This document shows positions 726 to 7,606 of a DNA stretch of 64,000 nt, one piece after another. Numbering within the stretch: position 1 is the first letter of the stretch; the number at the start of each line of letters is the position of its first letter. The notes under the pieces were generated by a model. That model saw only the letters and a program-made list of their open reading frames with translations. It was not told the origin of the DNA and ran no database searches. Source of the DNA: Shewanella decolorationis S12 (GTDB lineage Bacteria > Pseudomonadota > Gammaproteobacteria > Enterobacterales > Shewanellaceae); contig NZ_AXZL01000061.1 of NCBI RefSeq assembly GCF_000485795.1, positions 1 to 64,000 of the forward strand, written 5' to 3'. A program made the position numbers and the translations under genes.

Positions 726-1037
726 TTGCAGGCTGCTTTAGAGCATGATGGGAAAGATATAATTCCAACATATGAGGGAATAGGCAGAACAGATACTACA
801 AAAGTTAGATTCGACAAAAAGGCCGAGTGCGCTGAAAAGCTCGGGTTAATCGAAGAGTGGCTCAAAGATGAAATAATCGAATTTTATGAAGCTAGGAATG
901 CAATACATATTCATGCAGAAATCAGGAAGAGCCTTGAGTATCAACTGGACTTATCAAAAAGAGCTTATAGGCGCATGGAGCCATTTATTGACCAAATCAG
1001 AAGCAACTTGCCAAAAGTGGTGGCCAACAATGCATAA
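726..1037 (+). CDS. Small hypothetical protein, possible HEPN-like fragment
   Basis: A 103-aa frame that would begin with TTG at 726 without a convincing ribosome binding site. In-frame codons continue upstream to a stop at 702, so it may be the C-terminal remnant of a longer protein. The product is charged and helical, and contains RNAIHIH, which fits the R-x(4-6)-H active-site pattern of HEPN domains. That single motif is weak evidence for HEPN ribonuclease activity. The stop codon lies inside the GCATAAC end of the attC-like site at 1032, as expected for the gene of an integron cassette. Not recognised as a named family. Confidence 0.45.
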   Translation: MQAALEHDGKDIIPTYEGIGRTDTTKVRFDKKAECAEKLGLIEEWLKDEIIEFYEARNAIHIHAEIRKSLEYQLDLSKRAYRRMEPFIDQIRSNLPKVVANNA

Positions 1038-1091
1038 CAAGGCGCTCAAGCAAGGACGCAGCAAGCTGCGCCGCTTAGCTTGGCGTTATGC
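1032..1091 (+). repeat. attC-like site 1 (integron cassette recombination site)
   Basis: An imperfect palindrome of about 60 bp bounded by GCATAAC (1032-1038) and GTTATGC (1085-1091), the layout of attC R'' and R' boxes. Inside, GCTCAAGC pairs with the complement of GCTTAGC, leaving one unpaired C, like the extrahelical base of L''. The centre is a perfect CGCAGC/GCTGCG stem (1057-1062, 1065-1070). It begins at the end of one gene and precedes the next, as in cassette arrays. This is a structural reading, not a model score. Confidence 0.75.
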
Positions 1092-1105
1092 ATAAGGAGA
1101 GCTAA

Positions 1106-1288
1106 ATGCAGTGGATAATAGATAACAAAGAATGGGTGTTTAGTGGTATCGGCGTGTTTGTTCTCAGCTTGATAGGTGCTTTTATCTTTAAAGGAAAAAG
1201 CACAACCAGTCAGACCCAGAAATCTGGAAAGAACTCTAAAAACTATCAAGCTGCGGGCGACATTAACATCGGTACTAAAAATGATTAA
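1106..1288 (+). CDS. 60-aa single-span membrane peptide with SGxxSxNxQA motif
   Basis: The ATG at 1106 is preceded by AAGGAGAG, a strong ribosome binding site. Residues about 11-30 form one hydrophobic segment, followed by a polar tail. The tail contains SGKNSKNYQAAGDINIG, a motif type that turns up near the termini of many bacterial proteins of unknown or defence-related role. The end of the gene overlaps the ATG of the next gene (1281) by 8 bases, so the two are probably translationally coupled. Both lie between two attC-like sites and therefore form one cassette. Function unknown; an anchor or partner for the next protein is an inference. Confidence 0.7.
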   Translation: MQWIIDNKEWVFSGIGVFVLSLIGAFIFKGKSTTSQTQKSGKNSKNYQAAGDINIGTKND

Positions 1289-2339
1289 GGATAAGGTTCA
1301 AAAACAAGAGTCAGGAGATGACTCTACAAATCTTCAGGCGCAATCAATTACCATCAATCAAGGCATTACCTACTCAGACGCCAAAGAGATTGCTCTTGAT
1401 GTGTATAAAGCTAATTTCCTACAGCTGTCGCAAGATGCTGCGCAAGTGGCAAGAAAAAGAGCTGAAGAGCTAACAGATGATTTTCTTCAAAAGTTACAAC
1501 AAGAAAACGAGTCTGCAATAGAGTCAATGAATGAGCCATCTATGCAAGCTGCGTTATACGAGGCTCAAAAACAGTATGCAAAGACTGGTGACAAGGACTT
1601 AGAAGGGTTGCTTGTTGATATTTTGGTTGAACGAGCAGCCACACCTATGAGAAATATCCATCAAATTGTATTAGATGAAGCGCTTGAAGTTGCAGCAAAA
1701 CTGACAGCGGAACAAATGGATGCTCTGACAATAAACTTCCTCATAACTCGAACATCCAACGGATCTTTGACAAATCTCCCTGCTATTCCAAATTACATTA
1801 AAACGCATTTGGTTCCATTCATAGCTAATCTCAGTAGCGAGAGCTCATGCTATGAGCATCTAGAGTACGTTGGCTGTGGCTCTCTTATGCATATGGGAGG
1901 GTTAAAGCCCATCGAGAAAATATATCAAGAAGCCTATGGTGGACTATTTTCTAAAGGCTTTGATCGCGAGCGCCTAGAAAATGACATTGCAACTCCTGAC
2001 AGCTATCCACAGCTGATTACTAATTGCCTACATGATTCAAGTTTGCTTCAAGTAAATGCGATAAACGTTGGTGTAATCGACCAAATATCTGAGAGTCAAA
2101 ATATTCCGGCAGATGTAAAACAGAAATTCGTAAACCTATTCAATTCCACCCTGATGAATCCTCAGGAAATTAAAGACTATCTTGTTAAAGTATCACCTGA
2201 AATAGAACCGCTGTTTAAGCTTTGGGGTAAGTCTGGATTATCCAAGCTAGGCCTTACAACAGTGGGCATTGCAATCGCTCAGGCTAATTTCCGAAGAAAG
2301 ACAGGCATAAAACTAGACCTATCAATTTGGATCAAGTAG
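1281..2339 (+). CDS. LPO_1073/Vpar_1526-type protein of unknown function
   Basis: A 352-aa protein starting at the ATG at 1281 inside the end of the previous gene. The frame is open further upstream, but the family-like N-terminus begins MIKDKVQKQESG. The opening SGDDSTNLQAQSITI repeats the motif seen in the 60-aa neighbour. Then comes a stretch of the form YSDAKEIALDVYKANF and a long helical region rich in Glu, Gln and Ala (residues about 45-110). I recall this arrangement from the LPO_1073/Vpar_1526 family, whose function is not established. No catalytic motif or membrane segment was recognised. Placement in a two-gene integron cassette suggests an accessory, possibly defensive, role; that is inference. 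Confidence 0.7.
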   Translation: MIKDKVQKQESGDDSTNLQAQSITINQGITYSDAKEIALDVYKANFLQLSQDAAQVARKRAEELTDDFLQKLQQENESAIESMNEPSMQAALYEAQKQYAKTGDKDLEGLLVDILVERAATPMRNIHQIVLDEALEVAAKLTAEQMDALTINFLITRTSNGSLTNLPAIPNYIKTHLVPFIANLSSESSCYEHLEYVGCGSLMHMGGLKPIEKIYQEAYGGLFSKGFDRERLENDIATPDSYPQLITNCLHDSSLLQVNAINVGVIDQISESQNIPADVKQKFVNLFNSTLMNPQEIKDYLVKVSPEIEPLFKLWGKSGLSKLGLTTVGIAIAQANFRRKTGIKLDLSIWIK

Positions 2340-5700: not shown

Positions 5701-6573
5701 TCAGTAGCCTAAGGATTTCAGTCCCGCCTCGCCAAACCAGTAACCGTTACAGTGCTCATCGCTAAGAGGAAACTGAGCATCCGTTGCCTCGCTAGTTAAC
5801 GCCTCGACCAGCGCATCGGCCTTAGTGATACTGGCTAAGCTGCTGGGCGAAACCCGAAACACATCGACGCCCATCTTTATCATTTCATTGATTTCGCTGC
5901 GTAAATCGACACAGCTGGCCGACTGGGTTTGGATGCCGTTTAACCTGAGCAAAGGTTGCGCCTCCTGCGTCTGTGCCAGTAAGCCCTTGCTGTATTGGCG
6001 GCAAACGGTTTCGCAGCTGTCCTTCGACAAGTGTTGATGCCTAGCGGTAAAGCAGCGTGCAGAGTGGGCGAGTGGCAAATAGCCATGGCCAAGCACTTCG
6101 ACTTCTAATGCAGGCTTGTTTTCTATCACTTGGCTTAGCCAAGTCTTCGACAGTTCAACTGGCATCACAAAGCGCTGCATACCAAAGCGCTGCAAAATAT
6201 CTAAACTGGCGCGGTTGTAGTTATTGATGCTGGCGCCGCAGACAAAGGGCAGCTTGTGCTCCTTAGCGAGATACACGGCCGCCATGTCGTTGGCCTCAAT
6301 GCTAAATTCGCCATTGTCGACCTGGCGTTTAAGCTCAGTGTATTCAGAGGGCGCTTCGATAAGGGCGAGCGTTGACAGCACCACCTCTTTACCCGCAGAT
6401 TTAAGCATTTTAGCTAGTTCGAGATAGTCGCCAAACTTGAGTTCGCGTCGACGGCTACAAACGGCTTCACCCAGATAAACTAACGGGATCTGACTGTTGG
6501 CCACCTGCTGGTAAAAGTCGATGACCTGCTGTTTTTCCCAGCAATAGAGCAGTGGGCCGAGGGAAATTTTCAT
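5701..6573 (-). CDS. ubiV: UbiV, O2-independent ubiquinone hydroxylation protein
   Basis: A U32-family protein of 290 aa, matching the usual length of UbiV (YhbV). With UbiU it forms the 4Fe-4S complex that hydroxylates the ubiquinone ring without oxygen. Cys39 (GEAVCSRR) and the cluster HSARCF...SCETVCRQY correspond to the four cluster-binding cysteines. The frame is open upstream to 6618, but the product MKISLGPLLYCW is family-like and starts at 6573. It lies 31 bases after the ubiU stop, in the same operon. Expression under anaerobic control is known for E. coli; no clear FNR box was found here. Confidence 0.92.
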   Translation of the reverse strand: MKISLGPLLYCWEKQQVIDFYQQVANSQIPLVYLGEAVCSRRRELKFGDYLELAKMLKSAGKEVVLSTLALIEAPSEYTELKRQVDNGEFSIEANDMAAVYLAKEHKLPFVCGASINNYNRASLDILQRFGMQRFVMPVELSKTWLSQVIENKPALEVEVLGHGYLPLAHSARCFTARHQHLSKDSCETVCRQYSKGLLAQTQEAQPLLRLNGIQTQSASCVDLRSEINEMIKMGVDVFRVSPSSLASITKADALVEALTSEATDAQFPLSDEHCNGYWFGEAGLKSLGY

Positions 6574-6604
6574 AATCGTTTCTTCTTTGTGGTTATTGCT
6601 AGGG

Positions 6605-7606
6605 CTATTGCCAGTCACGCTCGTAGGCGCCTAAGGTGGTAATTTGGCCTTCGGAGACTTTCGCGAGGGCTTGCTCCCAATGGGCCTGCGTCTGGAATTT
6701 ATCTGGATGATTAAGATAAGTATCAATCGCTTGACGCCAAACTTTAGTCACTTGCTCTACATAGGCAGGGCTGCGCTGCCGCCCCTCAATCTTAAGTGAC
6801 ACTATGCCCGCCTTTGCAAGCTCAGGCAGCAAGCTAAGGGTATTTAAGCTGGTGGGAGACTCGAGCAGATATTGCGGCTTATCATCGTCTTGGGTGAGAT
6901 AACGGCCTTTACAGACCACTGGGTAACCCATTTGCTCATCAAGCCCTGACTTATCAATTAAGACCTCGTTGAGGCGGGTCAATCTGTCTTGCCCCTGTTC
7001 CTGCCAGCGCACGTGTTTTGCCGGAGAGCAAGAGCCGCCAGTGTTTGGCGATTGGCCGGTGACATAGGAGGATAAGTGGCAGCGGCCTTCGGCCATGATG
7101 CACAGACTACCAAAGGCAAAGACCTCTAAATCGACTGGGCTGACCTTAGCTAAATCGCGCACTTGTTTCATAGACAGCACTCTGGGTAACACCACCCGCG
7201 CGATATTAAACGCCTCTTTATAAAAGCTCAGTGCGCCCAAGTTGGTGGCGCTCGCCTGTACCGATAAATGCAGCGGAATATGCGGATATTGCCTATGGGC
7301 ATAGTCGAGCAGTGACAGATCGGCGACGATTAAGGCATCGACGCCAATGTTGGCCGCTAAGTCGATGGCTTGATACCAGCGGTGTTCCTCATTCGGCTTA
7401 GGAAAAGTATTCAAGGTGAGGAAGATTTTCTTGCCCCGCTGATGGGTGAGCGTGGCGGCTTCCTGTAATTTTGCGGGGGTGAAGTTTAAGCCCGCGAACG
7501 AACGTGCATTGGTATCATCCTTTAACCCAAGGTAGACAGCATCGGCTCCGGCCTGCAGCGCCGACTTTAGCGAGGCCAGGTTTCCTGCTGGACACAACAA
7601 CTCCAT
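6605..7606 (-). CDS. ubiU: UbiU, O2-independent ubiquinone hydroxylation protein
   Basis: 333 aa, U32 family, beginning MELLCPAGNLASLKSAL. Cysteines occur at the UbiU positions 169, 176 and 193 (SLCIMAEGRC, then GGSC), and a fourth lies in YPVVCKGRY. They bind the 4Fe-4S cluster of the UbiU-UbiV heterodimer. The ATG has GGGAG nine bases upstream. First gene of a ubiU-ubiV operon, divergent from ubiT across a 138-base gap that must hold both promoters. Confidence 0.93.
   Translation of the reverse strand: MELLCPAGNLASLKSALQAGADAVYLGLKDDTNARSFAGLNFTPAKLQEAATLTHQRGKKIFLTLNTFPKPNEEHRWYQAIDLAANIGVDALIVADLSLLDYAHRQYPHIPLHLSVQASATNLGALSFYKEAFNIARVVLPRVLSMKQVRDLAKVSPVDLEVFAFGSLCIMAEGRCHLSSYVTGQSPNTGGSCSPAKHVRWQEQGQDRLTRLNEVLIDKSGLDEQMGYPVVCKGRYLTQDDDKPQYLLESPTSLNTLSLLPELAKAGIVSLKIEGRQRSPAYVEQVTKVWRQAIDTYLNHPDKFQTQAHWEQALAKVSEGQITTLGAYERDWQ

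Follow-up and report, generated by a model that had tools for sequence, protein, structure and literature searches.

A small membrane protein and an LPO_1073/Vpar_1526-type protein encoded side by side carry a co-varying motif at their facing termini

Here we report a two-gene unit in which a small membrane protein and a soluble LPO_1073/Vpar_1526-type protein carry the same short motif, the former at its probably cytoplasmic C-terminus and the latter at its N-terminus. The motifs of the two partners change together, and from their sequences we consider it probable that the two proteins pair through them. The unit was identified in Shewanella decolorationis S12, in a stretch of 64,000 nucleotides (hereafter the window) whose position 1 is a contig end, and related paired loci were found in Gammaproteobacteria, Burkholderiales, Actinomycetota and prophages. 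A two-part membrane alarm, in which one half would template the other through the motif, is the best explanation that we can offer, and we offer it tentatively.

The gene pair and its cassette

The pair comprises the following features, given in window coordinates.

1030..1096, + strand: attC-like site, left cassette edge, with perfectly complementary ends TGCATAAC / GTTATGCA
1094..1099, + strand: Shine-Dalgarno sequence AAGGAG of the small gene, read from the sequence and overlapping the right end of the left attC-like site
1106..1288, + strand: small gene (P0001), encoding a 60-aa single-helix membrane peptide
1133..1189, + strand: predicted transmembrane helix, P0001 residues ~10-28, hydropathy 2.42 over 17 residues
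1211..1270, + strand: C-terminal putative pairing motif QTQKSGKNSKNYQAAGDINI, P0001 residues 36-55, conserved in relatives and co-varying with the partner motif
1281..2339, + strand: large gene (P0002), encoding a 352-aa soluble LPO_1073/Vpar_1526 protein (NCBIfam NF045477)
1299..1358, + strand: N-terminal putative pairing motif QKQESGDDSTNLQAQSITIN, P0002 residues 7-26, predicted to lie outside the folded domain
1362..2333, + strand: LPO_1073 alpha-helical domain, P0002 residues 28-351, putative sensor, pLDDT ~90
2338-2418, + strand: attC-like site, right cassette edge, sequence TGCATAAC...GTTATCGCC

P0001 consists of a hydrophobic helix, a KGK directly after it, which makes a cytoplasmic C-terminus probable, and a polar tail, while P0002 is soluble. 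An earlier note on this DNA had described one partner with a membrane helix and one without, and genes overlapping by 8 bases; both descriptions hold, the genes at 1106-1288 and 1281-2339 overlapping by ATGATTAA. It had also reported the same spacing of Ser, Gly, Asn, Gln and Ala in the two proteins, and the S, G, S, N, Q and A of SGKNSKNYQAAGDINI (residues 40-55 of P0001) and SGDDSTNLQA (residues 11-20 of P0002) are indeed identically spaced, but the motif is not the very start of the large protein, as MIKDKVQKQE stands before SGDD. Taken alone, the match between P0001 and P0002 is modest (shuffle P = 0.0045), and BLASTP of P0001 against P0002 gave no alignment of the motif. A profile built only from the small proteins and run on whole genomes picks the N-terminus of the P0002 gene (E 0.0045) and that of a Legionella LPO_1073 gene (E 7e-4). 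Judged by sequence comparison, the motif match goes far beyond chance once the comparative data presented below are added.

The two attC-like sites bracket exactly both genes, so that the pair looks like one integron cassette, in agreement with the claim that the genes move as one. The DNA of the left site folds with a z of -3.85 (bottom strand), one of 200 shuffles folding as well, and that of the right site more weakly, with a z of -2.45 (bottom strand). In a relative from the same bacterial family as the window genome (L005), the pair lies within an array of three attC repeats. A search for an integron integrase gave nothing over the TIGR02249 cut-off in an assembly that consists of 77 contigs, with the window starting at a contig end. 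The open reading frame at 1-492 of the window is truncated by the contig start; its sequence recalls REP-associated tyrosine transposases, but a Pfam search with it gave no match. A 103-aa open reading frame at 726-1037, upstream of the left attC-like site, is probably the leftover of a preceding cassette and matched no family among the NCBIfam, Pfam and PADLOC profiles. Just downstream of the cassette, at 2500-2660, there is a palindromic REP- or MITE-like stretch (ccgtccgccccacggacgg...).

The two protein families and their motif

The first genome scan, made with a single protein, gave no match, and an alignment was required to find relatives. A total of 33 non-redundant LPO_1073 proteins was collected from whole genomes, GTDB contigs, IMG/VR and E. 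coli records, and 26 two-gene loci were assessable after exclusion of the contig-edge loci L055 and L057, the fusions L039 and L040, the truncated copy L041 and second tandem LPO_1073 copies. A short membrane-protein gene is directly adjacent at all 26 loci; the set test against the pair, that homologues rarely have the small partner, therefore failed to refute it. The adjacent membrane reading frame fits the small-protein-tail profile at 25 of these loci, where the motifs occupy the facing termini described above, and that of Nocardia vaccinii was recognised by eye: it encodes a membrane protein of 144 aa, in which two stretches resemble a diverged motif, next to two tandem LPO_1073 genes (L024 5555-8111). 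In L075 (1288-3370), too, two tandem LPO_1073 genes come after one small membrane gene, and gene order is inverted at a single locus, L052. Starting from the small proteins alone, searches arrived at these gene pairs as well, in every case in which the neighbour was examined. The LPO_1073 family is rare and patchy, occurring in 1/117 genomes of the genus, 2/321 of the class and 3/398 of the phylum, the genome under study included. A DNA-pattern search for the motif in viral contigs returned two known loci and two chance matches in phage structural genes.

Co-variation was analysed in 21 pairs whose large-protein motifs are <70% identical to one another. The mean local alignment score was 51.6 for the motifs of true partners and 39.0 for re-paired ones (0/100,000 permutations as high), and P was still 0.0005 when the five strongest pairs were left out. 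Large-protein motifs shuffled at the same composition gave an excess of only 1.4, compared with the 13.3 observed. Examples of matched motifs are KASSGSTVIQSGRDTN / RASSDSHIIQSARDTN in L011 and KGGIGSKNIQ / KGGIGSTNIQ in L051. As true partners have motifs more alike than re-paired ones, the motifs of partners change together, and this pair-specific similarity, combined with the constant adjacency of the genes, supports the earlier suggestion that the partners assemble, and presumably touch, through a shared tag, perhaps at the membrane.

At least two kinds of membrane part occur among the small proteins, namely class A, a single helix (xxNKEWxFSGIGV), and class B, two hydrophobic segments (W...PGFDS). 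On well-supported branches of the LPO_1073-domain tree at least two exchanges between the classes are needed, with the class A locus L051 falling inside an otherwise class B clade, which implies that the motif is kept when one membrane module is exchanged for another. In Legionella (L039 and L040), the membrane helix, an Asn/Gln-rich linker and the LPO_1073 domain form a single chain. The class A segment also heads two otherwise unrelated proteins (L082 913-1596, - strand; L083 1498-2205), one with an SPFH/Band 7 domain and the other of unknown kind, and thus behaves as a reusable N-terminal helix that may be only an anchor. The profile of the PADLOC phage defence candidate PDC-M43A (203 positions) did not match P0001 as a whole: positions 1-49, which consist mainly of the membrane segment, align with an E of 1.7e-8, and the remaining ~150 are missing from P0001. 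Other PDC-M43A matches in the genomes cover positions 34-197, outside the membrane segment, and look like chance or coiled-coil.

P0002 matched NF045477 with 312 bits against a cut-off of 45, covering profile positions 1-257, and the same model is matched by all 23 aligned relatives; phrog_19542 likewise matches the LPO_1073 protein. Neither entry names a partner gene or a function, and we found no literature on the function of LPO_1073/Vpar_1526; one Veillonella proteome paper names Vpar_1526. The curated NCBIfam domain starts at residue 28 of P0002, just after the motif. In the AlphaFold2 model residues 28-352 form one confident, almost wholly helical domain and residues 1-27 are disordered (pLDDT ~36-46), so by this prediction the motif sits outside the folded domain. 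The tail of the E. coli relative P0005 was modelled, at low confidence, as a strand-turn-strand, with strands at 5-11 and 14-19 and a pLDDT of only ~60.

Pfam and NCBIfam searches of P0002 and 22 relatives found no NTPase, nucleotide-binding or repeat domain, and the sequence itself consequently says nothing of sensing or oligomerising. Foldseek searches gave nothing significant with the P0002 and P0005 models against the PDB or with the P0002 model against viral models, and no solved relative of the LPO_1073 domain was found by sequence or fold search; VIA-align rows were helical-bundle look-alikes (Z <8). Abi_alpha (PF14337) has a C-terminal LTxxG pattern that we take to be like that of LPO_1073, and was rejected as a relative at an hhalign probability of 0.1-0.2%, obtained with a set of only six sequences, one of them probably a wrong reading frame. 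Also rejected were AbiLii (E 0.011 for P0002), a match attributed to chance because it was shared by 1/23 relatives only, the SidC lipid-binding domain (E 0.051, 1/23 relatives) and chorismate mutase, a chance match in the PDB sequence search (E 0.5).

Candidate mechanism and alternatives

Bacterial and fungal amyloid signalosomes are encoded by adjacent or overlapping genes, with a motif at the C-terminus of the effector and at the N-terminus of the receptor (PMC7889193, PMC12261475). As in the bacterial BASS NLR/Bell and the fungal NWD2/HET-S systems, a motif of ~20 residues stands here on the C-terminus of a small, putatively membrane-acting protein and on the N-terminus of its partner, and the pairs are heterotypic pairs of similar motifs (PMC7889193, PMC12261475). 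The two-gene layout with a shared motif was found at 26/26 assessable loci, including the one with inverted order. The motif is closer to a published BASS3 peptide than shuffled sequences are, yet the likeness is weak and may reflect a common N/Q/G/S-rich make-up. Unlike in BASS, the partner is an LPO_1073 protein in which neither an NTPase nor a repeat domain is detectable, the putative effector is a one- or two-helix peptide of 60-90 aa, and most hosts are unicellular Proteobacteria and prophages, whereas BASS occurs chiefly in filamentous Actinobacteria or Cyanobacteria. The Bell domain is a helical bundle with a membrane helix; the proteins described here have the membrane helix within only 60-90 aa. 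Because the NLR part was searched for and is absent, we do not class the pair as a BASS/NLR system. Death-like and effector-associated domains likewise join neighbouring effector and sensor genes homotypically, but they are folded alpha-helical domains, whereas the pairing element here is a short tail; such domains, which couple adjacent immunity genes, are treated in PMC8195603.

Given the amyloid-signalosome-like layout, homotypic templating is judged the likeliest mechanism, with amyloid templating between the tails rated a little below an even chance. The two halves of the proposed alarm would be joined by the homotypic short motif, the LPO_1073 protein acting as a soluble helical sensor that carries it on an N-terminal tail outside its folded domain, and the small protein acting as a membrane effector that carries it on its cytoplasmic C-terminal tail. 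A trigger, probably phage infection, would lead LPO_1073 to oligomerise, whereupon its N-terminal tails would form stacks of amyloid-like strand-turn-strand (beta-arch) units that serve as templates for those of the small protein; the membrane helices would then cluster and cause membrane damage or growth arrest. Bacterial amyloid signalling has so far been found via NLR receptors, and a review named its existence without them an open question (PMC7889193). We regard it as possible, though speculative, that the pairs described here are NLR-free amyloid-signalling immune systems whose LPO_1073 sensor templates the tails of a minimal effector in the membrane, and that integrons and prophages have distributed them over unicellular bacteria. 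Such a reading, if true, would answer the question raised in PMC7889193 on signalling amyloids outside NLR pathways. The pair combines the amyloid-signalosome layout with a different, uncharacterised putative sensor, is very small (~1.3 kb) and is present in P2-like prophages of E. coli, and its natural motif variants allow tests of specificity in common laboratory strains.

The strongest alternative is a plain membrane tether, in which the tail of the small protein would pair one-to-one with the LPO_1073 tail, by beta-strand addition or similar, and would keep the soluble LPO_1073 protein at the membrane as the active part; no polymer would form, and the small protein itself would not kill. 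The single-chain fusions of Legionella are no harder to reconcile with such simple tethering than with templating, and the interchangeable membrane modules and the reuse of the class A helix at the head of unrelated proteins also speak for it. A plain tether, however, would require neither a common sequence on the two sides nor a likeness of the tails within each lineage, and the homotypic motif points instead to like-with-like stacking; tethering is thus held to be somewhat unlikely. Even if the pair is a tether only, the finding would still link two functionally uncharacterised protein families as partners and identify the motif that pairs them.

Ranked below the tether, and considered unlikely, is a toxin-antitoxin addiction module, with the small peptide as a holin- or TisB-like toxin whose tail is capped by LPO_1073. 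Toxin-antitoxin pairs are frequent in integron cassettes, and the small gene placed first with the second gene overlapping it, as well as the tandem large genes that accompany a single small gene in L024 and L075, would suit such a module. An antitoxin of 285-355 aa for a toxin of 60-80 aa would nevertheless be unusual, the fused chain of Legionella and the inverted order of L052 are atypical, and an antitoxin that mimics the tail of its toxin is left unexplained. Prophage housekeeping, as superinfection exclusion at the membrane or as a lysis accessory, appears improbable. It would account for several prophages that carry the pair with tail genes on one side and holin or endolysin genes on the other, with endolysin downstream in L010, L050 and L062 and tail or minor head genes upstream in L007 and L050, but not for the pairs in integron cassettes without lysis genes, in the P2 hotspot and near an integrase-like gene in Legionella. 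Among the viral-contig loci, the pair precedes an endolysin gene in three and an integrase-like gene in one.

Genomic neighbourhood and the anti-phage question

The intact pair occurs in six E. coli genomes (four chromosomes and two phage-plasmids) and, at the three intact loci examined for annotation, is flanked by the genes for the replication endonuclease and the portal protein of a P2-like prophage. Three genes adjoin it, which PADLOC, run on the L002 copy, where the pair spans 5746-6858, identified as Hp1-Hp3 (520-820 bits). The P2 gpA-gpQ locus is a described defence hotspot that has been tested for phage defence; one system encoded there, of three genes, confers protection against phage P1 (PMC9122126). 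From the PADLOC names we infer that Hp1-Hp3 are this system, which occupies the same gpA-gpQ locus as the E. coli pair and consists of different proteins encoded on the opposite strand. In Marinobacter (L020 8674-11157), an 827-aa protein with SIR2 and STAND NTPase domains, likely a defence protein, is encoded ~1.6 kb downstream of the pair. The suggestion of an anti-phage function in the earlier note finds its support only in the locations of the pair, in the P2 hotspot, in prophages, in integron arrays and near one SIR2-STAND gene; no phage challenge data for the pair were found. We see roughly even odds that the pair brings about anti-phage cell death. In one further E. coli record (L060, LT883142), an IS5-like element, ISKpn26, stands at 5873-7084 where most of the pair would be, and the last 84 bases of the large gene are left beside the portal gene.
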